Source: Runella rosea
GTDB taxonomy: Bacteria; Bacteroidota; Bacteroidia; Cytophagales; Spirosomataceae
Assembly (NCBI RefSeq): GCF_003325355.1
Contig: NZ_CP030850.1
Span: 620,001-684,000, forward strand
DNA: 64,000 nt
Reading direction: 5' to 3'
In this document: positions 6,807 to 55,773 of the stretch, piece by piece
How the letters are laid out: each line of letters opens with the position of its first letter
Position numbering within the stretch: the first letter of the stretch is position 1
Notes under the pieces: generated by a model
The model's database searches: none
What the model was told of the DNA's origin: nothing
The model's input: only the letters and a program-made list of their open reading frames with translations
Translations under genes and position numbers: made by a program

Positions 6807-9404
6807 TTACGAATTTATCGTATCTACTGGCACATCAGGAATCTCAATGTCGGGGTCGATCGACGGTGGTAGCATAAAGAGCGAGTCTTTATTGGCGTTG
6901 GTCGAGTCGGGGACTTGCTCAATCGGCGACGACGCTGCGCAACCTTTATAAGGCTTGATAATAGTGATTGTGGGTTTGGGGAAAGGCCCGCGTTTGTAGC
7001 CGATGCTTGCATCGTCGTACACTTTTTCCAGAAAGCGTCCCACCAAAGGCAAGGCCGTTTTGGCTCCCTCGCCCAGATTCGTACTTCGGAAGTGAATACT
7101 GCGGTCGTCGCCGCCCACCCAGCCGCCTACCACGAGGTCTTTGGTGACCCCCATGAACCAACCGTCGGAGTTATTGGAAGTGGTGCCCGTTTTACCGCCA
7201 ATCTCAAAACCATTTTTAAACAAACTGCCAAACGTCCACATATTTTGCGAAGTACCGCCAGGTTCTTCAATACCCCCTTTGAGCATGTGAACCATCAAAA
7301 AGGCAGATTCTTCGCTGATGACTTGTTTGCTTTGCGGGGCAAATTCCTCAATCACGCTTCCGTTGGCATCTTCGATGCGCGCCACCACCACGGGGTCGGT
7401 ATGCCGACCGCCGTTGGGAAATACTGAGTAAGCCGCCACCATATCAAACAACGACACGTCAAACGGCCCCAATCCGATGGAGGGAACGGCTTTCAGCGTA
7501 GTCGTAATGCCAAGTTTACGGGCGTAATTAACCACCGATTGCGCGCCGATTTTGTTTGTTAAATGTGCCGTAACAGAATTGATGGATCGCGCTAAGGCAC
7601 GTCGTAGGGTTAGTTCTTGATACGTAAAACCGCCCGTGGAGTTTTTAGGTCGCCATATTCGGGTTGTATCGCGTCCGCGTACTTTTTCCCGAACTTCAAT
7701 CTGAAACGGCTCGTCGACAATTTTATCGCAGGGGTTCATGTTGAACGCTGAGCTGTCGATAGCGGCGCAATAAACAAAAGGTTTAAAGGTAGAGCCAGGC
7801 TGGCGTTTTCCTTGCTGAACGGCGTCGTATTTGAAGAATTTATAGTTCAAACCACCCACCCAGGCTTTTATCTGTCCCGTATAAGGGTCCATGGCCATCA
7901 TGCCCGCGCGCAGAATGCGTTTATAATAATTGAGTGAATCTATCGAGCTCATCATGACTTTTTTCTCACGACCGGTTTTCCAGTCGTAAATGGTCATCGT
8001 GTCTCGTTTATTCATATAATACCAAACGGAATCCTGCCGAGCGGCTGAATCCAGTTTTGCAAATTGCTTTGATAATAACTTGTAACGGTCGGTGCGTTTG
8101 GCTACGTCGTTCAAAAAATTCGGGATTTCGTTGCCCTGTTCATCGCGCCAAGGGTTTTGATTCAACCAATGATTTTCGAAGCTTTGCTGCAGCATCCGCA
8201 TTCGCTCTGAGACGGCGGCAACGGCGTGTCGTTGCATCCGTGAATCAATCGTTGTCCGAATTTTTAGGCCATCAGTGTAAGGGTCATAATCGTTTTCTTC
8301 GCCCCATTTTTCCATAAATGCTTCCACACTTCCGTTGAAATACTGATAAATGGCGTATTCATCGTCTTCTTCGTTGAAGCGCTCGGGCGTCAGGCGAAGT
8401 TCGATGGGAAGTTTACTGAGAGAATCGGCCTGGCTTTGTTTCAAATAATTGTACTTCACCATTTGCGACAACACCGTATTACGACGTACGAGTGACTTGT
8501 CGTAGTTTTTGGTCGGGTTGTAGGTGTTGGTCGCTTTCTGGAGACCCACCAATACCGCCGCTTCCTGTAAGTTAAGTTCGAAAGGCGATTTGTTGAAATA
8601 ATACCGCGCGGCCGTCTTGATGCCGTAGGTGTTGTTGGAATAGTCGACGGTATTGAAGTACATGGTCAGAATTTCTTCTTTCGAAAAGTTTCGTTCCAGC
8701 CGAATCGCCGTGAGCCATTCTTTGGTTTTATAGACAACCGTTCGTACAAGCGGAATATAACCAAGCAACCCCCTTGCGGAGCGTTTACGGGTTTTGAACA
8801 GTTTCTTCGCCAATTGTTGCGTAATGGTACTTCCGCCGCCGCGCTCTCCGCCCTTTAAAATACCAACGGCTACTCCCATCAATGCCCGTGAGTCAATGCC
8901 CGAGTGCTCATAAAAACGGGCGTCTTCGGTGGCAATGAGTGCTTTTACGAGGTTGGGTGAAAGGCTGTCGTAGTCAATGGGAGTACGATTTTCGGTATAA
9001 AATTTTCCAATCAATTGCCCATCCGAAGAATAGATTTCCGAGGCTTGCGCCACCTTTGGGTTTTGTAAATCTTCGACGCTGGGCATACTGCCACACAACC
9101 ATAAAAAGTTGGTTTCGACACAAAAGATGTAAAAAGCAAACGCGGCAGTCCCGTACACAAATGCTTTCCAAGTCAGGATGACGGGGCGGTAGTAGGGCGA
9201 ATTTACGTCAACACGAGAATGAAATTTTCTTTTTAACGAGGTACGGTACGCCTGTAGGGTATTACTCCAGTTTTGAAGCCGTTCCTTGCCTACTATTTTA
9301 CCCAATAAATTGTAAAATAACGACAGCAACAGACCGAAAGCCCGTTTTACAGGAGCAATGAGTTTTTGCCAAATCACGTTCAGTTTCTCCAAAAATTCAC
9401 GCAT
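6807..9404 (-). CDS. Penicillin-binding protein 1A, bifunctional peptidoglycan synthase
   Basis: An 865-aa class A PBP that polymerises lipid II and cross-links peptides at the outer face of the inner membrane. There is one N-terminal membrane segment (ILTWKAFVYGTAAFAFYIFC). The GT51 transglycosylase domain follows (ATEDARFYEHSGIDSRALMG, GGSTITQQLAKKLF), then the transpeptidase domain with SxxK (PGSTFKPFVY), SxN (ARSINS) and KTG (GGKTGTTSNNSDGWF). The C-terminal tail is short and Asp/Pro-rich. Length and order match Bacteroidota PBP1A (mrcA/ponA-like). A possible -7 box for this strand is at 9432-9439. All catalytic motifs are intact. Confidence 0.95.
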   Translation of the reverse strand: MREFLEKLNVIWQKLIAPVKRAFGLLLSLFYNLLGKIVGKERLQNWSNTLQAYRTSLKRKFHSRVDVNSPYYRPVILTWKAFVYGTAAFAFYIFCVETNFLWLCGSMPSVEDLQNPKVAQASEIYSSDGQLIGKFYTENRTPIDYDSLSPNLVKALIATEDARFYEHSGIDSRALMGVAVGILKGGERGGGSTITQQLAKKLFKTRKRSARGLLGYIPLVRTVVYKTKEWLTAIRLERNFSKEEILTMYFNTVDYSNNTYGIKTAARYYFNKSPFELNLQEAAVLVGLQKATNTYNPTKNYDKSLVRRNTVLSQMVKYNYLKQSQADSLSKLPIELRLTPERFNEEDDEYAIYQYFNGSVEAFMEKWGEENDYDPYTDGLKIRTTIDSRMQRHAVAAVSERMRMLQQSFENHWLNQNPWRDEQGNEIPNFLNDVAKRTDRYKLLSKQFAKLDSAARQDSVWYYMNKRDTMTIYDWKTGREKKVMMSSIDSLNYYKRILRAGMMAMDPYTGQIKAWVGGLNYKFFKYDAVQQGKRQPGSTFKPFVYCAAIDSSAFNMNPCDKIVDEPFQIEVREKVRGRDTTRIWRPKNSTGGFTYQELTLRRALARSINSVTAHLTNKIGAQSVVNYARKLGITTTLKAVPSIGLGPFDVSLFDMVAAYSVFPNGGRHTDPVVVARIEDANGSVIEEFAPQSKQVISEESAFLMVHMLKGGIEEPGGTSQNMWTFGSLFKNGFEIGGKTGTTSNNSDGWFMGVTKDLVVGGWVGGDDRSIHFRSTNLGEGAKTALPLVGRFLEKVYDDASIGYKRGPFPKPTITIIKPYKGCAASSPIEQVPDSTNANKDSLFMLPPSIDPDIEIPDVPVDTINS

Positions 9405-29573: not shown

Positions 29574-29620
29574 ATACAAAGTAGCGTTGAATGATTAAAA
29601 GTACTTTGTAATACAAAGTA
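29574..29620 (-). promoter_or_regulatory. Operator-like palindrome with an extra half-site
   Basis: A perfect 9+1+9 palindrome (tactttgta-a-tacaaagta) sits at 29602-29620. A further half-site, atacaaagta, lies at 29574-29583 and matches 29611-29620 exactly. The site is upstream of the minus-strand membrane-protein genes. The half-sites resemble -7 boxes (TAnnTTTG) but with one base missing. Likely a repressor site; no regulator gene is adjacent. Confidence 0.6.
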
Positions 29621-29817
29621 AATGATTTATAAAAATAATATCCAAATTAATGACAGTTTTTTTTTATTAGCTAGGTTTTTATTAGGCATAGGTTGAGACG
29701 GCTTGTCGAGTATTGGATTTTGTCTGATTTAGAGAGAAAAGAGATATTTTTATCCTAAAAACAGTAAAGTTGCCTGCCTAACCTGTTTATTAAACATAAC
29801 CAAATGCCGTTGAGCTC

Positions 29818-30663
29818 ATGTCCCTGATTGCCGCTTTCCAAAAAGACGAAGTACTTCTTCACGATATTGAACAGCACCGCCAAAATACCGAAGGTTTCCG
29901 AATTTGGTGGCTGGGCCAAAGTGGTTTTTTGATTCAGTGGCAAAACAAACACTTGCTTTTTGACCCTTATTTGTCGGATTCTTTGTCGGTGAAATATGCC
30001 GCAACCGATAAACCCCACACGCGCATGAGTGAGCGGGCCATAGCCCCTGCGTTGCTTACCATGATTGATGTAGTGACTTCTTCGCACAACCACACCGACC
30101 ATTTGGATGCCGAGACGTTAGGCCCACTGTTTGCCGCTAACCCTGATCTTCAATTTGTGATTCCCGAAGCAAATCGCGCGTTTGTGGGTGAGCGCCTGAA
30201 GTGCGCGGTGGATTGGCCAATTGGGTTAAATGACGGCGAAAGCGTCGTTGTGGGTGGTTTTAAACTCTACGGCGTTCCGGCGGCGCACAATGCCTTGGAG
30301 CGCGATGCCGAAGGTCGTTGCAAATTCATGGGATTTGTGGCCGAGTTTGGTGGCTATCGGGTGTATCATTCGGGCGATACGCTCTGGTATGATGGTATCG
30401 TAGACGTGTTGAAGCCTTTTGCGGTCGATGTGGCTTTTTTACCCATCAATGGCAATAAGCCCGAACGCCGCGTGGCGGGAAATCTTTCGGCCGAAGAAGC
30501 CGCGCGTTTGGGCGTGGAAATAGGCGCAAAACTCGTTATTCCGCACCATTATGATTTGTTTACGTTTAACACCGAAGACCCGCAGGAGTTTATAAAACAA
30601 GCAAAATTATACGGGACCCCGCATCGAGTCTTGAATATTGGGGAAGGGGCGAGGGTTGAATAG
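29818..30663 (+). CDS. MBL-fold metal-dependent hydrolase (UlaG-like)
   Basis: A 281-aa metallo-beta-lactamase-fold protein. The metal motif HxHxDH appears as SSHNHTDHLDAE, with further ligands in VYHSGDTLWYDG (His, Asp) and the C-terminal VIPHHYDLF. The N-terminal GFRIWWLGQSGFLIQWQNK is typical of the UlaG-like group of lactonases and phosphodiesterases, not of antibiotic-hydrolysing enzymes. Residues MSLIAAFQKDEVLLHDIEQH form a short N-terminal helix. No signal peptide, so cytosolic. Substrate unknown. It is the last conserved gene before the accessory island. Confidence 0.85.
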   Translation: MSLIAAFQKDEVLLHDIEQHRQNTEGFRIWWLGQSGFLIQWQNKHLLFDPYLSDSLSVKYAATDKPHTRMSERAIAPALLTMIDVVTSSHNHTDHLDAETLGPLFAANPDLQFVIPEANRAFVGERLKCAVDWPIGLNDGESVVVGGFKLYGVPAAHNALERDAEGRCKFMGFVAEFGGYRVYHSGDTLWYDGIVDVLKPFAVDVAFLPINGNKPERRVAGNLSAEEAARLGVEIGAKLVIPHHYDLFTFNTEDPQEFIKQAKLYGTPHRVLNIGEGARVE

Positions 30664-30699
30664 TGGGGGAATGCAAAGGGTGGGCTTTTTATATGTGGC

Positions 30700-30727
30700 C
30701 AGAGGCCTGAAAATAGTCGTCTCTTGC
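30700..30727 (-). repeat. Gene-trailing repeat, copy 1 (exact 28-bp match with copy 2)
   Basis: A 28-bp sequence, beginning cagaggcctgaaaatagt on the plus strand, located 31 nt beyond the stop codon of the DMP19 gene. It is identical to 31373-31400. A diverged third copy is at about 32351-32385. All three lie at gene 3' ends in the same orientation. Confidence 0.85.
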
Positions 30728-30758
30728 TGGACGCGAGCGACTGCTAAAGTTAACATTT

Positions 30759-31274
30759 TTACTTCCCTCTTATGTTGATTAAATAGCTTTCTAAGTCTAT
30801 CCAAATTTGTGAATAAATGTTAAACAGTTCGTCTTCGTGAATTTTTAATTCTTCAAGCAAATCATTTTCTTTAAAAAACTGCCCTGTTGTGATAATTGAA
30901 TATTCTGAAAAATCCTCAGAACCTTTTAAAAATCTGTCACGCATTTTTGCAGGTGTCATTCCAAATTTATTCAAAGTATCTAATATGTCTTGTAAGCAAT
31001 TTGCAAGCTTTATGCTTCCGATTTTTTTAAAGCTATTTAATGTATTTTCAAAATTGTAGGTAGAGGAATTTGTTAATAATGTAGTGAGGCCTGACATTTG
31101 GAGTTCTGTGTCAAATTGAAGAAGATAAGCAGTAATATAAAAATAGTCAGGTATATCTTCTTTCTTCGGATCGTCAATTAAATATATATTGTCATCGTCC
31201 CATAACTCAGTTGAAAGCATTTCAATAAAGTCAAATGATGTTAAATTTTGCGTATTATCAATGGATATTTTCAT
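30759..31274 (-). CDS. DMP19-family (DUF4375) protein
   Basis: A 171-aa acidic, soluble protein. Visible family segments are DYFYITAYLLQFDTELQMSG, NSFKKIGSIKLANCLQDILD and the C-terminal YSQIWIDLESYLINI. DMP19/DUF4375 proteins occur among immunity-like genes of bacteria, but no biochemical role is established here. The gene is AT-rich (18 G/C of 60 in 30781-30840). It lies between two identical 28-bp repeats with its neighbours on the same strand, so it looks like a single-gene cassette. Confidence 0.7.
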   Translation of the reverse strand: MKISIDNTQNLTSFDFIEMLSTELWDDDNIYLIDDPKKEDIPDYFYITAYLLQFDTELQMSGLTTLLTNSSTYNFENTLNSFKKIGSIKLANCLQDILDTLNKFGMTPAKMRDRFLKGSEDFSEYSIITTGQFFKENDLLEELKIHEDELFNIYSQIWIDLESYLINIRGK

Positions 31275-31372
31275 TGTTTAGGTCTATTCATTTTGTAAAA
31301 TTTATTCTGTTCGAATCTTTTGTTTTCGGCCTAAACGCAATCTTATGCAAACAGTATTAACAGGGTTTCCAG

Positions 31373-31400
31373 CAGAGGCCTGAAAATAGTCGTCTCTTGC
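31373..31400 (-). repeat. Gene-trailing repeat, copy 2 (exact 28-bp match with copy 1)
   Basis: Identical to 30700-30727 over 28 bp, located 22 nt beyond the stop codon of the SMI1/KNR4 gene. The 673-bp period between the two copies contains only the DMP19 gene and its leader. Confidence 0.85.
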
Positions 31401-31422
31401 GGGGTTAAGGGTAGTTATTCTC

Positions 31423-31824
31423 TTAATTATCATTTAATTCGTCAATTGTATCTGCTACTTTTTCAATTTTACCCGTCTCGTGAAGCCATAGAAAAATTTC
31501 ATCACTTAAAATTTTACTGTCCTTCTTTGTCGGTAAAAGTAATAGGAAATCACCGCAACCATTAGAGGCAATTGCAATTCCCTCATTTGGAAAATTACCC
31601 CATTTTCTTGCTTGTTTAGTTTCTAAAACTAAGTGATTACAAGTCCTGCTCATTCTCTTTTTGTCAGATTTATCGAAAAAAGGGAACAATTGCCAGTCGT
31701 CCTCTTCAGTCATTAATTCCCCACCATTTTCTTTTTTCATTTTTACTTTGAAACAGGGGGGGAAGACAAGCCCAATTTCTTGTTCTGTTTCAATTATATA
31801 TTTTACCTCTACTGGGAAGGCCAT
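31423..31824 (-). CDS. SMI1/KNR4 family protein
   Basis: 133 aa from the ATG at 31824 (MAFPVEVKYIIETEQEIG). A start 13 codons earlier would overlap the upstream gene. SMI1/KNR4 signatures are visible as LVFPPCFKVKMKKENGG, DWQLFPFFDKSD and GNFPNEGIAIASNGCGDFLLL. In bacteria this family is frequent among immunity proteins of contact-dependent or polymorphic toxins. No toxin gene is adjacent. It begins 4 nt after the DUF2185 stop codon, so the two are co-transcribed and probably co-translated. Confidence 0.85.
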   Translation of the reverse strand: MAFPVEVKYIIETEQEIGLVFPPCFKVKMKKENGGELMTEEDDWQLFPFFDKSDKKRMSRTCNHLVLETKQARKWGNFPNEGIAIASNGCGDFLLLLPTKKDSKILSDEIFLWLHETGKIEKVADTIDELNDN

Positions 31825-31828
31825 ATTA

Positions 31829-32161
31829 TTACGTAAGTAGTTTAAAAGTGTCTGTCCCCTCAACCCTTTCTAATTCACTACCGAATGGATAGTCTAAATA
31901 TGGAATGATTGCTCTGTCGTAGTTTGCAATGGTATTTACATTATAAATCATTAAGTTGTCTGGATTGTCAACATATTCTTGGTCTTCTGTCCCTGAAAAA
32001 AAACTCCAACCACTATCCATTTGTTCGTCTGATTCTTCACGATACATATAACCAACTTTCATTCCCTCCACAGTTATTTTGTCTGTTGCAAAACAGCCTC
32101 CCATAGCAGGAACTAATTCAACGATTTCTTCTGCTTTTAATTTAAAGTCCTTCGTGGTCAT
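31829..32161 (-). CDS. DUF2185 (Imm33-like) protein
   Basis: A 110-aa soluble acidic protein. The DUF2185 pattern is visible: GGCFATDKITVEGMKVGYMY, SGWSFFSGTEDQEYVDNPDN, LMIYNVNTIANYD and PFGSELERVEG. Members are listed among immunity-type domains; a role against a particular toxin cannot be assigned. It is followed by SMI1/KNR4 with a 4-nt spacing, and preceded by a 267-nt spacer holding the third repeat copy. Confidence 0.85.
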   Translation of the reverse strand: MTTKDFKLKAEEIVELVPAMGGCFATDKITVEGMKVGYMYREESDEQMDSGWSFFSGTEDQEYVDNPDNLMIYNVNTIANYDRAIIPYLDYPFGSELERVEGTDTFKLLT

Positions 32162-32427
32162 TTTTATGTCCTTTGTTGGTTTATCTAATTACGGTTAACG
32201 CCCGTAAATTTTTGAAGTTGTGGAAAACTAAGTAAAGTCGAAAAAATTGTTGCTGATTCCTGTTGTTTTATAATCCTCTCTAATTGAAGCAATTACTCTT
32301 ATCTATCAGTTAATTGAACTGACTTTCTTTATACTTTTACTTTTATACACAGCTGGAAACTAAAAATAATCATCACCGCAGGGGCGGCCGCGACGTGTTG
32401 TACAAACGATAGCTGAGCCTTCGTTTT
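32162..32427 (-). other. Spacer between CatB-type and DUF2185 genes
   Basis: An AT-rich spacer without an open gene. It holds the diverged gene-trailing repeat (about 32351-32385) next to the acetyltransferase stop codon, a tgttgtacaa element (32396-32405) shared with 37215-37224, and a ggttaacgcccg segment near 32193 that could be the end of an attC-like site or part of the DUF2185 leader. Confidence 0.5.
32351..32385 (-). repeat. Gene-trailing repeat, diverged copy 3
   Basis: On the minus strand this reads cccctgcggtgatgatta followed by tttttagtttccagctg. It aligns with copy 2 (ccccgcaagagacgacta followed by ttttcaggcctctgctg) at about two thirds of positions, including tatttt, and lies about 45 nt after the acetyltransferase stop codon. 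Homology is an inference from a hand alignment. Confidence 0.5.
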
Positions 32428-33051
32428 TTATTCGATTAATTGGGCGATATTGTTATCGGTCAGATTTTGAATGTTTTTTGTTATTTTCTCAATGTCCCAA
32501 TCCCACCATTTCAGCGCTAAGAGTTTGGCAATTGTATCGTCAGAAAAGCGTTTTTTGATTTCGGTGGCAGGGTTTCCGCCAACAATTGAATAAGGTTCAA
32601 CATCTTTTATGACGGTCGAGTTTGTGGCAATAATGGCTCCATCTCCAATGGTTACCCCTGCCATGATGGTCGCATTGTAGCCAATCCAAACATCATTGCC
32701 AATGCGGATGTCGCCTTTTTGTGGGTAGGTTTTTCCGTCCATCGCTTTCTCCCAACCATTCCCAAAAATCGCAAAAGGATAGGTTGTCAAGGCATTGGTT
32801 AGGTGATTTGCCCCGTTCATGATGAATGTTACATTGGAAGCAATCATGCAAAATTTCCCAATAACCAATTGGTCGCCAATGAAGTCAAAATGATATTTTA
32901 CGTTCTTTTCAAAGTTTTCAACATTGTCAAAATCATCATAGTAAGTATAGTCGCCCACAATAATGTTGGGATTTTTGACAATGTTTTTCAAAAAGCAAAG
33001 CCTGTCATAATGAGCAAGCGGAAATATTTTGTCTTTATCTGGTCCTGTCAT
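32428..33051 (-). CDS. CatB-related xenobiotic O-acetyltransferase
   Basis: 207 aa with a left-handed beta-helix of hexapeptide repeats (IGNDVWIGYNATIMAGVTIG, DGAIIATNSTVIKDVEPYSI). The catalytic His segment of xenobiotic acetyltransferases is visible in MNGANHLTNALTTYPFAIFG. Other typical parts are NPNIIVGDYTYYDDFD and the C-terminal LLALKWWDWDIEKI. This family acetylates chloramphenicol or streptogramins in some members, but most chromosomal members are untested, so resistance is only a possibility. catB genes are classical integron cassettes. It is the most upstream gene of the accessory minus-strand array. Confidence 0.88.
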   Translation of the reverse strand: MTGPDKDKIFPLAHYDRLCFLKNIVKNPNIIVGDYTYYDDFDNVENFEKNVKYHFDFIGDQLVIGKFCMIASNVTFIMNGANHLTNALTTYPFAIFGNGWEKAMDGKTYPQKGDIRIGNDVWIGYNATIMAGVTIGDGAIIATNSTVIKDVEPYSIVGGNPATEIKKRFSDDTIAKLLALKWWDWDIEKITKNIQNLTDNNIAQLIE

Positions 33052-33114
33052 GCTGTTGTCAAAGGTATATTTTGTTTATAAGGACGCAAAACCCGTGAAC
33101 TAATCATTCGCTAC

Positions 33115-35520
33115 TCAATTCACGCTTTTCTCCAAACTCTCGAAATTCATCATGTTGGTTTTTTCTTCTTTTTTGCGAATGCCGAAGTTATAGACCACCG
33201 TACACCCAAAACGTCGCGTGTCGCTTTGGCGGATTCCGGAGGCCGAAACACTGCCTTGTTTCAGCGTAAATTGATTGTTGGAAGTGAAGAAAACATCATT
33301 GGCTGAGAGCGTCACGGTGAGTTTACGGTCCAGAAAACGACGATTAACGTTTATGTTCAACGCCCCGAAATTGCTCAACTCATAAAACTGCAATTGGCCT
33401 TTCATCCGGAGGTAGCCGTTGAGGCTGAGCGTGGAGCGTGGGTCGATTTTGAGTTGGTGAAAGGTGAAAATGGACCACGAACCGCGCTGAAACGTGAGCG
33501 GACGTCCTTCATAAAGCCCGTCGTATTTGTTGTGATTGTATTGCGTTCCTACCACAAAGAAGTACTTCCCGCCTGGCGGAATAGCGCCCATCAATCGAAA
33601 ATAGGTTTCTTGATTTTTGCCTAGGTTGTCGTACGTACGGTAGGCGAGGCTAGGATTTTTAACGTCCTGATACACCACATTCGTGAAAATATCGCTCGTA
33701 TAGTTGCGGCCAATGGCAAATATCGGACGGTCCTGCACGCTGATGTTGGCCTCGATGTTTTGGGTAAACTGCGGCCGAAGCGTCGGGTTTCCCGTTTCGT
33801 ACAAGTATTGGTCGAGGTAGCGTGGAAAAGGATTTAGATATTCATAAACGGGCCGCGTGATGGAACGACGGTACACCAAATAACCGCGCATTTCGTAGCC
33901 TGCGATTTTGGCAACGCGTCGGCTGAGAAAAACATAAGGGAACAAATCAACACGACGAAGCTGAAAAGAGGTGTCGCTCGGAACGCGCTGCTGACCGTTC
34001 ATGACGGTGCTTTCGAGGCGCGTTCCCACTTTGATTACGAAAGCATCGATGGTTTTTGACGCCTGTACGTAAGCAGCACTGATGTTTTCGTCGTATTCAA
34101 ACGTACGGGTGCGGAACGTATCGGGCCTACGGCTACTGCCGCTGACGCTGAAATATTCGGACTCGTTGGTGAAACGCTGAATGGCGGTTTTCAATCCCGC
34201 TTCAACCACCAGTTTTTGGGGTAACTGAAATTTTAGATCGGTACGGGCGGAGAATGAATGACGTCGATTGCCAATGGTTCCGTCGCCGCCAATTGCTGCT
34301 TTGGCGGGTTTTAAATAGGCTGTACTGAATACCTGTGTCCCTTCATATTTTGAAAAACCGTAGGTGACATCGGCCGTGAGTTCTGAGCCGATGGTGTCCA
34401 ATTTATATTTGGCCGAAATATCCTGATTGAATCCAAACGTCTGGGTATTGTTACGGAGTGTATTGGTGTTTTCAGTGACAAGAATTGGCTCGCTTATGCG
34501 GCTGATTTGATTGTGATTGTCGGCAAAAGATTCATAACTATTGTACGAAATTCGGTCGTCAAAATTAATTTCCCACTTTTTTGAAGGCGTAAATCCAAAA
34601 CCAAAACCGCTGTAATACGTCTGACTTGGGGTAGTGGTAAAAGAGCGCTGGCTCAGTAGTGAGTCGGCCGAAAAAGGGCGGTCCGTTTGGACTTGGTCGT
34701 AGGTATTGCGGCGGTTGTAGTTGAGGGTCAGGTAGGTAGTTCGGTTCCCGACGTTGTTGTTGAGGGTACCACTAACAAACTGATTGCCATAACGTCCTTG
34801 ATTCATGCCTACGTTCACACTGCCCGTGATGCCAATTTTTACCCCTTTTTTTAGAATTACATTGACCATACCACCGCTACCGCTGGCGTCAAACTTAGCC
34901 GAAGGCGTGCGCAGAATCTCAATTTTTGCAATGCTGTTGGGGGGCAAGTTTTTGAGCATGGACGCAATGTCGGCCGTACTCATTTTTTGTTCGCGCCCGT
35001 TGATTAAAATCGTGGCGGGCGTGGTGCTATTGAGGTAAATATTGCCATCCTGATCCACAAAAAGCCCCGGTATCTTCTCCATGATTTCCATGGCGTTGGT
35101 GCTTGTGGCGGCAATGGGTTCGGGGTCAACCACGGTTTTGTCGTCTTCCTGTATCATCAAAGGTTTAGGGGCCGTCACCACAACCTCATTTAAGGTGCGC
35201 TTGTCAGCTTCCATCACAAACGTAAAAACCGCCGTGTTGGGGGTAGGAGAGAGGTTTTTTTGCAGAGTTTGAAATCCGATGGAGGTGGCCTCCAACCGGT
35301 ATTGTTTTTCGTATTTAATGTTAAATTTCGCTAATCCCGACGTGTCGGTGACGTTGAATAATCGCTTGGTAGAATCGGCACGCTCAATCAACCGGAGCGT
35401 AGCGCCAATGACGGGGCTATTGGAGGTATCAGTTAATCGAATGGTTAGGGATTGAGCAAAAGTAGATTGGGTTAGTACGAAACAAATAAAAAAGATGAAG
35501 TGGCGGTGGAGTAATTTCAT
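33115..35520 (-). CDS. Outer membrane beta-barrel (TonB-dependent receptor-like) protein
   Basis: 801 aa from the ATG at 35520 (MKLLHRHFIFFICF, a signal peptide ending FAQ). The longer open frame would run into mqo. The order is: carboxypeptidase-regulatory-like domain (SLTIRLTDTSNSPVIGATL), plug (MEIMEKIPGLFVDQDG, ATILINGREQKMS, KIEILRTPSAKFDASGSGGM), then a C-terminal OMP_b-brl_3 barrel ending CTVVYNFGIRKKEEK. It is a paralogue in style of the gene at 18783. It starts 23 nt after the mqo stop codon on the same strand, so it may be co-transcribed with mqo, though a functional link is unclear. Ligand unknown. Confidence 0.88.
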   Translation of the reverse strand: MKLLHRHFIFFICFVLTQSTFAQSLTIRLTDTSNSPVIGATLRLIERADSTKRLFNVTDTSGLAKFNIKYEKQYRLEATSIGFQTLQKNLSPTPNTAVFTFVMEADKRTLNEVVVTAPKPLMIQEDDKTVVDPEPIAATSTNAMEIMEKIPGLFVDQDGNIYLNSTTPATILINGREQKMSTADIASMLKNLPPNSIAKIEILRTPSAKFDASGSGGMVNVILKKGVKIGITGSVNVGMNQGRYGNQFVSGTLNNNVGNRTTYLTLNYNRRNTYDQVQTDRPFSADSLLSQRSFTTTPSQTYYSGFGFGFTPSKKWEINFDDRISYNSYESFADNHNQISRISEPILVTENTNTLRNNTQTFGFNQDISAKYKLDTIGSELTADVTYGFSKYEGTQVFSTAYLKPAKAAIGGDGTIGNRRHSFSARTDLKFQLPQKLVVEAGLKTAIQRFTNESEYFSVSGSSRRPDTFRTRTFEYDENISAAYVQASKTIDAFVIKVGTRLESTVMNGQQRVPSDTSFQLRRVDLFPYVFLSRRVAKIAGYEMRGYLVYRRSITRPVYEYLNPFPRYLDQYLYETGNPTLRPQFTQNIEANISVQDRPIFAIGRNYTSDIFTNVVYQDVKNPSLAYRTYDNLGKNQETYFRLMGAIPPGGKYFFVVGTQYNHNKYDGLYEGRPLTFQRGSWSIFTFHQLKIDPRSTLSLNGYLRMKGQLQFYELSNFGALNINVNRRFLDRKLTVTLSANDVFFTSNNQFTLKQGSVSASGIRQSDTRRFGCTVVYNFGIRKKEEKTNMMNFESLEKSVN

Positions 35521-35543
35521 GTTTGGTGTTAGATACCTGAAAA

Positions 35544-37058
35544 TCAGGGAGTATTGATGTGGTTTAATTGTAATACTTCGTGGGTCCATTGGCGGACGCG
35601 ATGCGTAAGTTCGAGGTCATCCGCCAAATGTTTACCATACGACGGAATCATTTCATTGAGTTTTGTGGTCCATGCTTCGGAGGCCATTTGGTCTTTGAAG
35701 CACTTGTGGAGGAGTTCGAGCATAATGCTGACGGAGGTAGAAGCCCCCGGCGATGCGCCCAATAACGCGGCCAGCGTGCCGTCGGCCGAGGCGATGACTT
35801 CGGTGCCAAATTCAAGGACACCGCCCTCTTCTTCGTCTTTTTTAATGACTTGCACGCGTTGCCCCGCCACGGCCAACTCCCAATCACTTTCGGTGGCATT
35901 CGGTATAAATTCGCGCAAAGCCTCGATTTTATCTTCAAAACTCAGCATCACTTGCTCAATCAAATACTTGGTCAACGGCAGGTTATGAATGCCCGCGCTG
36001 AGCATGGGCAAGATGTTGTGGGCGGTGAGCGAAAAGGCCAAGTCAAGAAACGAACCCTGTTTCAAGAATTTCGTTGAAAAACCCGCAAAAGGCCCAAAAA
36101 GAAGCTCTTTTTTGCCATCAATAATTCGCGTATCTAAGTGAGGAACCGACATAGGCGGTGCTCCTACTTTGGCTTTCCCGTAGACTTTGGCGTGATGTTG
36201 GGCGATTAATGCCTCATTTTTACACACCAACCATTGACCACTTACGGGAAATCCGCCATATCCTTCCCCTTCCTGAATGTCCGACTTTTCTAGGAGCCGA
36301 AGCGCACCGCCACCTGCTCCAATAAACACAAATTTGGCCCGTACTGTTTTATTTATATCATTGATTTCGTCTTCTACTTTTACGAACCAATGTCTCATTT
36401 CGTCCTGCTCAAGCGACTTCACTTCGTGATTCAGAAACACTTCAATGGCGTGGCCTTCTTTCAAGTGATTAAACAGACTCCGGGTAAGCTCACCAAAATT
36501 TACATCCGTACCCAACTCAATGCGGGTGGCCGCTATTTTTTCGGATTCGGTGCGGTGTTGCATCACGATGGGCATCCAAGATGCTAGAATTTCAGGTTGG
36601 TCGCTGAATTCCATGCCTTTAAACAAATGACTCGTTTGCAGCGCTTCGTGTCTCTTTCGCAGATAGTCAACATCTTCTTCTCCCCATACAAAACTCATGT
36701 GAGGAATACTGTTGATGAAGGATTTTGGACTACTGAAATAGCCGTGCCCGACCAAATACGACCAAAATTGCTTCGAAACCTCAAAGGATTCAATGATTTT
36801 CAGGGCTTTAGAAATATCAATGCTGCCGTCTTGGCGCTGCGGCGTGTAGTTCAACTCGCACAGCGCCGAGTGGCCCGTTCCTGCATTGTTCCAAGCGTCG
36901 GAGCTTTCGGCCGCTACCCGGTCGAGGCGTTCAAAAATGGCAATTTCCAAGTCGGGTTGCAGTTCCTTCAAAAACACGGCCAAGGTGGCGCTCATGATAC
37001 CCGCCCCAATCAAAACTACATCATAATCTACGGAAGCATTGTTTTCGTGGCTAAGCAT
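35544..37058 (-). CDS. mqo: Malate:quinone oxidoreductase
   Basis: A 504-aa membrane-associated FAD enzyme that oxidises malate to oxaloacetate and passes electrons to quinone. The N-terminal FAD-binding motif is DVVLIGAGIMSATLAVFL. Family blocks follow: SSDAWNNAGTGHSALCELNY, VFIGAGGGALRLLEKS, GGFPVSGQWLVCKN and AALLGASPGASTSVSIMLEL. The length is that of Mqo. It is the upstream gene of a possible two-gene transcript with the outer membrane protein. No malate dehydrogenase gene lies in the window. Confidence 0.96.
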   Translation of the reverse strand: MLSHENNASVDYDVVLIGAGIMSATLAVFLKELQPDLEIAIFERLDRVAAESSDAWNNAGTGHSALCELNYTPQRQDGSIDISKALKIIESFEVSKQFWSYLVGHGYFSSPKSFINSIPHMSFVWGEEDVDYLRKRHEALQTSHLFKGMEFSDQPEILASWMPIVMQHRTESEKIAATRIELGTDVNFGELTRSLFNHLKEGHAIEVFLNHEVKSLEQDEMRHWFVKVEDEINDINKTVRAKFVFIGAGGGALRLLEKSDIQEGEGYGGFPVSGQWLVCKNEALIAQHHAKVYGKAKVGAPPMSVPHLDTRIIDGKKELLFGPFAGFSTKFLKQGSFLDLAFSLTAHNILPMLSAGIHNLPLTKYLIEQVMLSFEDKIEALREFIPNATESDWELAVAGQRVQVIKKDEEEGGVLEFGTEVIASADGTLAALLGASPGASTSVSIMLELLHKCFKDQMASEAWTTKLNEMIPSYGKHLADDLELTHRVRQWTHEVLQLNHINTP

Positions 37059-55036: not shown

Positions 55037-55156
55037 CTTAACTCATGTCTGTGTCTTCACAGACCTTTTCTGTAAAAATGGTATGGGATTTTTGCCATAT
55101 ACATCCAAAGAATAGACAAACGTGAAGGGCCTGTGAGGACACAGACCAAGGCTAAG
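55037..55156. mobile_element. MITE-like element, left copy (about 120 bp)
   Basis: Bounded by 19-bp imperfect inverted ends: left cttaactcatgtctgtgtc, right gacacagaccaaggctaag. The interior is nearly identical to the copy at 55655-55773 in direct orientation. Internal stems tctgtg-ttca-cagac and atggta-taccat-like are visible. No ORF. It lies downstream of purL and of the MORN gene. Confidence 0.8.
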
Positions 55157-55654: not shown

Positions 55655-55773
55655 CTTACCCTAGGTCTGTGTCTCCACAGACCTTTTCTGTAAAAATGGT
55701 ATGGGATTTTTACCATATACATCCAAAGAATAGACAAACGTGGAGGGTTGTGAGGACACAGACCAAGGCTAAG
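55655..55773. mobile_element. MITE-like element, right copy (about 119 bp)
   Basis: Inverted ends cttaccctaggtctgtgtc (55655-55673) and gacacagaccaaggctaag (55755-55773) agree at 17 of 19 positions. The interior matches the copy at 55037-55156. Internal hairpins include ggtctgtg-tctc-cacagacc. No ORF. Confidence 0.8.

Follow-up and report, generated by a model that had tools for sequence, protein, structure and literature searches.

REP-associated tyrosine transposases (RAYTs, also termed TnpA-REPs) are linked to repetitive extragenic palindromic (REP) elements. Cutting and joining of single-stranded DNA is known for TnpA-REPs other than those considered here (PMC8266576; statements on this and the other cited papers refer to the parts of them that were compared). 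Bacteroidota carry TnpA-REP subclass 2.6, or RAYT group 5, with the motifs NH[LIV]H, WQ and YIH[QN]NP, and the repeats of these proteins have been termed 'atypical secondary structures' (PMC6006769). REPs have been described near gene 3' ends, in convergent or unidirectional locations (PMC3733652). Bacteroidota are also among the phyla with integrons (PMC9668308). Here we describe a short repeat found in three copies in a 64-kb stretch of the Runella rosea genome (7.16 Mb, 7 contigs); this whole stretch is referred to below as the window. The copies lie, together with four AT-rich minus-strand genes, in a gap between a plus-strand hydrolase gene and a minus-strand receptor gene.

A preliminary description of the window had reported a repeat present three times in the same orientation, every copy directly following a minus-strand gene, and had compared the arrangement to integron gene cassettes. 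The former observation was confirmed. With regard to its meaning, we consider it highly probable that the repeats are a REP family of group 5 RAYTs, located in a gap between convergent genes in which accessory genes turn over and of which REPs are frequent edges.

Structure and genomic placement of the repeat family

A covariance model was built from 27 gap-free aligned Runella copies, gathered with a pattern in which the tag and a single arm of hairpin 1 were fixed and hairpin 2 was left free. The consensus consists of GGCCNGAGGCCT, three free bases, AATAGTCGTCA and then a second hairpin (e.g. CTCGC-GGGAC-GCGAG closed by AGTCG/CGACT), i.e. two short hairpins and a GTCGTCA tag. In the 27 copies 84.2% of the cells were paired in this structure, and none of the 500 shuffles or of the slid controls reached its covariation score. 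The repeat is short, palindromic and extragenic, with a conserved tag beside a hairpin, which is the composition of a REP element.

Matches to the model (E ≤ 0.01) were found in 11 of the 13 Runella genomes, at least four of them in Runella rosea and between at least 3 and at least 69 in each of the ten others; these counts are lower bounds, with 150 candidates scored per genome. Genomes G011 and G012 gave no match at this threshold among the candidates scored. In a sample of genomes from the bacterial family to which Runella belongs, analysed with stricter filters and 55 candidates scored per genome, matches were present in at least 27 of 101 genomes and at least 13 of 36 genera.

The genomic context was determined for 73 model matches, which fell into 53 places within chosen loci (open reading frames, ORFs, of at least 100 aa; copies 2 and 3 of the window left out; orthologous copies counted separately). 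They comprise all 57 matches of a first set and those 16 of a second set of 50 that fell in other places. It should be noted that 20 of the regions had been picked for good repeat matches, so that the sampling is biased toward REPs. Thirty of the places were unidirectional, 12 convergent and 5 divergent, while 4 lay inside ORFs and 2 at edges. Random positions fell inside ORFs in 83% of cases, and random intergenic positions of the same loci were distributed 75/10/15% among unidirectional, convergent and divergent locations. For the 42 places that had a gene 3' end beside them, the median distance to the nearest one was 4 nt, compared to 47 nt for random intergenic positions, and 74% of the REP places, versus 48% of the latter, lay within 40 nt of a 3' end. 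Inverted doublets occupied 19 of the 53 places, and each of the three inverted pairs that were folded formed a stable hairpin (z -7.65, -6.11 and -8.67); the family therefore includes doublets of the type known as REPINs (REP doublets forming hairpins).

The preliminary description had named a genome-wide spread of the repeats without relation to gene ends as a finding that would refute it. This applies only in its first half: the copies occur genome-wide but keep close to the 3' ends of genes, as REPs usually do (PMC3733652). Lying behind genes is thus characteristic of the repeat family as a whole and by itself no mark of cassettes.

Association with RAYT genes

In R. limosa (locus L060), REPs were found on both sides of a gene encoding a 177-aa protein, which matched the NCBIfam model REP_Tyr_transpos (NF047646; 109.3 bits, cut-off 80) and carried the motifs SHLH, WQ and YIHQNP. 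By its motifs and model match this protein fits group 5 / subclass 2.6, with S instead of N in the first motif. When it was used to scan GTDB contigs, 56 RAYT loci were obtained, some of which may be near-duplicates. Two of them are titled Deltaproteobacteria; the remaining ones bear names that we take to be those of Bacteroidota.

All 41 model matches with E ≤ 0.01 in these loci lay within 250 bp of the RAYT gene, a zone that makes up 13.4% of the flanks (a further 18 of 59 matches, with E above 0.01, were left out). They were distributed over 22 of the 56 loci, with both sides occupied in 11. The model was built from Runella copies only, and 3 of the 41 matches (L193) are themselves training copies. 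The REP-bearing loci include representatives of Pontibacter, Adhaeribacter, Siphonobacter, Mucilaginibacter, Fulvivirga and Chitinophagaceae; no significant REP match was found in the other 34.

Runella rosea has six RAYT-family matches, one of them above the cut-off; this best match shares 49% identity with the protein of R. limosa. No RAYT-family match was found in this genome within 100 kb of the REP matches (the identity of two weaker matches, L064, was presumed). Across its 7.16 Mb, two exact occurrences of a 20-nt REP core were found, and a third that differs at 3 positions. The REPs of the window are probably relics without their own transposase, because the copies are few and no REP-flanked RAYT gene was found in Runella rosea.

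Several further repeats were noted. At the best RAYT gene of Runella rosea (L142, G000:C1:5267932-5268417), AGCCGT..ACGGCT and GTGTTC..GAACAC hairpins were recognized by eye, in the same two-hairpin layout. Locus L156 (G002:C2, about 562 kb) contains a RAYT gene with about a dozen related REP variants (tag AAACGGCA) on both sides, mostly alternating in strand. The window holds a second repeat family at 55047-55146 and 55655-55773, composed of inverted repeats that share GTCTGTGTC...GACACAGAC; similar letters are also present beside the RAYT gene of L142 and in L067.

The three copies and the genes of the window

A scan of the 64-kb window with the covariance model gave three matches at E up to 5, and these are the three copies named above (Table 1). 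Copy 1 belongs to the training set of the model, as the only window copy among its 27 sequences. The claimed 28-bp identity between copies 1 and 2 was borne out, with 30 of 31 nt matching overall (30700-30730 versus 31373-31403). The third copy, previously aligned by hand, proved to be real but to belong to a diverged variant. L077 and L076, which are two arms of a variant copy present in a different species of Runella, both had their best window match at copy 3 (scores of 48 and 38, versus 34 and 32 for the next best elsewhere in the window), and for this reason copy 3 is regarded, on sequence evidence, as a genuine repeat of the variant type; a counterpart of it is present at the aligned position in G006. 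All three copies are singlets and do not form inverted pairs.

The distances from the repeat ends to the stop codons, given earlier as 22-45 nt, were corrected to 14 nt (DMP19), 19 nt (SUKH) and 28 nt (acetyltransferase). One repeat does end each unit, yet copy 1, placed between the convergent hydrolase and DMP19 genes, also sits behind the former, 31 nt from its stop codon.

Table 1. Features of the variable gap in the Runella rosea window (positions in the window) and state of the corresponding region in other Runella genomes
Genome	Feature	Position	Strand	Score
R. rosea	Metal-dependent hydrolase gene, conserved; left border of the gap	29818..30663	+	
R. rosea	REP copy 1: hairpin 1 (GGCCAGAGGCC), spacer, GTCGTC tag, hairpin 2	30695..30744	+	65.3 bits, E 1.8e-14
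R. rosea	DMP19-domain gene	30759..31274	-	PF14300, 30.1 bits (cut-off 25)
R. rosea	REP copy 2, part of both hairpins missing; behind SUKH	31370..31403	+	11.9 bits, E 0.25
R. rosea	SUKH (SMI1/KNR4) gene	31423..31824	-	PF09346, 58.1 bits
R. rosea	Imm33 gene	31829..32161	-	PF09951, 110.7 bits
R. rosea	REP copy 3, diverged, CCGCACGGGCGG variant; behind acetyltransferase gene	32350..32399	+	8.7 bits, E 1.6
R. rosea	Hexapeptide acetyltransferase gene, Vat/CatB-like (XAT)	32428..33051	-	
R. rosea	Outer-membrane receptor gene, conserved; right border of the gap	33115..35589	-	
G011, G012	Gap empty; two stop codons within a few bases			
G010	Acetyltransferase gene only; no REP			
G006	REP1, Imm33, copy 3 counterpart, acetyltransferase			
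G004	Ankyrin-repeat gene and REP beside receptor gene			Ank_2, 49.8 bits
G009	Short ORFs (47, 116 aa); no REP match			
G001	REP1 at the same place, then other DNA to contig end			
G002, G003, G005	Hydrolase and receptor genes more than 100 kb apart			
G007	Hydrolase and receptor genes on different contigs			

The low G+C content of the four-gene segment was confirmed (29-40%, compared to about 45-54% in the two border genes). Pfam also supported the earlier calls of DMP19, SMI1/KNR4 and DUF2185 domains, the last of which we take to be the former name of PF09951 (Imm33). The SUKH ORF is listed to 31863 (TTG start), and the ATG start at 31824 was assumed from the G005 homologue. The gene previously described as a CatB-type acetyltransferase does encode an acetyltransferase, though by score one closer to Vat (292.6 bits against a cut-off of 300) than to CatB (183.9 bits against 350). 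No close relatives of the DMP19 protein were found in a scan of GTDB contigs.

Gene content of the gap in other Runella species

The region between the hydrolase and receptor genes was readable in seven other species, and its content differed among them (Table 1). The receptor match was not found in G008. The sequence shared by the window and G006 stops at 30744, exactly where REP1 ends, and resumes at 31814, inside SUKH and about 410 nt from copy 2. The sequence shared with G010 reaches to 30662 and starts again at 32412, i.e. 32 nt outside REP1 and 12 nt outside copy 3. In G004, the segment with the ankyrin gene and the REP ends 19 nt ahead of the shared block. The nearest relative found for the SUKH-Imm33 pair is located at another chromosomal place in G005, and the homology runs from 31404, the base after copy 2, to 32170; no REP match was found within 1.5 kb of this pair. 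To judge from the alleles compared, the accessory genes in the gap turn over between species, with REPs as frequent, but not invariable, edges.

The preliminary description had made unit-by-unit gain or loss between relatives a test of its proposal. Gene content does differ, and several edges coincide with a repeat or lie no more than 32 nt from one. A clean exchange of units was not seen, because the difference from G006 comprises both the DMP19 and the SUKH gene and has a repeat at just one of its edges.

Two side observations concern the border and accessory genes. In G001 the receptor gene is represented by two short pieces (215 and 76 nt) beside other sequence (L108, G001:C38:21641-21928), and the receptor locus looks rearranged in this species. 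The acetyltransferase (32428-33051; counterparts in L074 and L104) is 99.0% identical to that of G006 and 96.5% to that of G010, while the border core genes are less alike (about 95% and 93%, respectively), which may reflect either recent exchange between the species or stronger constraint.

REP turnover at other loci

Gene block edges coincide with REPs elsewhere as well. When G002 and G005 were compared, four of the eight inner ends of the three main blocks lay inside a REP (L058 at 10500 and 15394; L188rc at 8877 and 14804). G003 lacks a 416-nt piece together with its REP, and the RAYT segment of R. limosa (G003) corresponds to a single REP in G002. One orthologous site carries a full inverted pair in G004, a hairpin remnant in G001 and neither in G006. 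Other REP pairs are shared by two or three species at orthologous positions. As far as these alignments indicate, REPs can be gained or lost independently of genes and can also be retained; in many cases, though not in all, gene turnover has its edges at them.

Such edges invite the view that genes lie in REP-bounded units, which are moved or swapped either by REP-REP recombination or by a RAYT that works on two REPs in trans. It agrees with the left edge against G006, the two edges against G010, the point at which the G004 segment stops, the start of the G005 homology directly after copy 2, the four block ends inside REPs and the replacement of a RAYT segment by one REP. It is at odds with the right edge against G006, inside SUKH, with the G010 allele, which keeps no REP, and with the SUKH-Imm33 pair of G005, which has no REP nearby. 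Moreover, the loci had been chosen for REPs, so that edges in REPs are over-represented, alignment ends are imprecise and the breakpoint counts are uncontrolled. On balance we regard such units as unlikely. A literature search on this subject gave no title of relevance.

At the other extreme, the repeats might be transcription terminators or mRNA-end hairpins only, and immobile. This would account for their median distance from gene 3' ends, and no insertion event was caught; it leaves unexplained the close association with RAYT genes, the differences between species in whether an orthologous site holds a whole pair, and the lack of a match in 2 of the 13 species among the candidates scored. 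A purely terminator-like role is thus very improbable.

Search for integron components

The features that recall integrons are the shared orientation of the genes, the repeats at their 3' ends and the combination of an acetyltransferase with immunity-type genes. Canonical attC sites have the ends RYYYAAC/GTTRRRY. The statement that no integrase is present was upheld, as no integron integrase (IntI) above the TIGR02249 cut-off (265 bits) was found in any of the 13 Runella genomes, Runella rosea included. IntI was judged on match pieces, and the largest two-piece sum among the matches listed was 242.0 of 265 bits (G004). In the best match of Runella rosea, a 536-aa recombinase (233.1 bits), some 60 positions in the middle of the profile are skipped. 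This protein is of the Xer/XerA type and exceeds the threshold of the XerA model NF040815 (227.7, cut-off 220), the full name of which includes 'integron integrase'.

A search of Rfam with 29600-33200 gave nothing near a gathering score, and no long palindromes with TAAC/GTTA ends were found in the window at the threshold used. A general palindrome scan found none in 30600-33100, although it was insensitive and also missed the palindromes of G005 described below.

By its structure the window repeat is unlike attC, with two short hairpins in place of one long attC hairpin. It also flanks RAYT genes and is found genus-wide behind ordinary genes. The proposed cassette organisation is not supported by these results, and a sedentary cassette array, or an attC cluster without an integrase, has in our opinion hardly any probability. 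The SUKH-Imm33 pair of G005, which has an imperfect palindrome with CTAAC/GTTAG-like ends on either side, could be cited in its favour, but these palindromes differ from the window repeat and exceed shuffled sequences only modestly in folding (z -1.89 and -2.43).

The G005 palindromes (L172:960-1090 and 1862-2005; G005:C1, about 1.701 Mb) are about 130-145 bp long, contain GAAGCACAAA motifs and bound the gene pair in an attC-like layout. Another attC-like structure, an 84-bp palindrome with CTAAC...GTTAG ends (z -4.44), is located directly behind an ORF in G002 (L058:6977-7060, G002:C9); no integron integrase above the cut-off was found in that genome.

Proposed mode of action and its significance

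The repeats would be non-autonomous, hairpin-forming elements handled as single-stranded DNA. By analogy with other RAYTs, the group 5 protein may cut and join a single-stranded hairpin beside the tag and so spread the REP, and, as suggested by the REPIN work (PMC3116915), it may move inverted pairs. The gap between the convergent core genes presumably tolerates insertions of both REPs and foreign genes. Gain and loss of the genes would most likely result from ordinary horizontal acquisition and deletion, with REPs often forming the edges of deletions or recombination events.

A number of observations weigh against this interpretation. Copies 2 and 3 score weakly (11.9 and 8.7 bits) and are not significant by the model alone. 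Single window copies fold no better than shuffles: the minus-strand folding proposed in the preliminary description gave z-scores of -1.55, -0.76 and -1.19, and the plus strand was weaker still. In the 27-copy alignment, 4 pairs had changes in both partners, a count that 206 of 500 shuffles reached and that one slid control, with 6, exceeded. Only 3 of the 30 fetched RAYT-family loci of Runella had significant REPs of this family (15 of the 30 were above the cut-off, including the same 3), and the best RAYT gene of Runella rosea is flanked by different palindromes. Some gene edges match REPs more closely than mere co-location needs. Finally, an insertion event is unproven at the orthologous site of G004 and G006. 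This site had been considered a clean insertion of a REP pair, a candidate that was dropped on account of the remnant kept in G001; loss is likelier than insertion, because G001 and G006 are nearer to each other, and our confidence was slightly lowered by this result.

A more far-reaching idea is that RAYT and REPs make up an integrase-free cassette system, in which a RAYT acting in trans would excise and insert single-stranded, REP-edged accessory and immunity genes that are exchanged between species. We consider it improbable and favour a REP family whose copies often lie at the edges of genes that are acquired and deleted by ordinary routes.

The analysis makes a consensus and a covariance model available for use with the REPs of group 5 RAYTs in Bacteroidota, although a consensus of these repeats may already be in print in supplements; no paper on REPs of Runella was found by title. 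It also links a CGTC-like tagged REP to a RAYT, whereas the 2013 survey gave no transposase for its CGTC repeats. The set of orthologous loci allows testing whether REPs are passengers or active edges of gene turnover.

Comparison with known systems

The locus resembles integron cassettes and clusters of attC sites lacking integrases (CALIN; PMC9024848) in its small accessory genes, single orientation and a repeat behind each unit, but differs from them in having no IntI above the cut-off and a repeat structure other than attC. With the CGTC-tagged REPs of PMC3733652 it shares the CGTC beside a hairpin and the convergent or unidirectional location near 3' ends. In contrast to families 1-4 of that survey, no 8-9 bp stem starting with A-T and no CCA tail were recognized by eye, and the repeats described here flank RAYT genes, which is reported for none of the CGTC repeats in the parts compared.

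The inverted doublets forming hairpins, the extragenic location and the link to RAYTs are shared with REPINs, or bacterial interspersed mosaic elements (BIMEs; PMC3116915). The REPs of Pseudomonas carry another tag, however; in the window only singlets are present, and no excision was observed in this analysis. The closest counterpart is the TnpA-REP subclass 2.6 / RAYT group 5 system of Bacteroidota (PMC6006769), with its HuH, WQ and YIHQNP motifs and a gene that has hairpin repeats at its flanks, of which the same genome holds further copies. The R. limosa protein has SHLH where that paper gives NH[LIV]H, and a consensus for the repeats is not among the parts of the paper compared, whereas the family described here is defined by a two-hairpin, GTCGTCA-tagged consensus and a covariance model.

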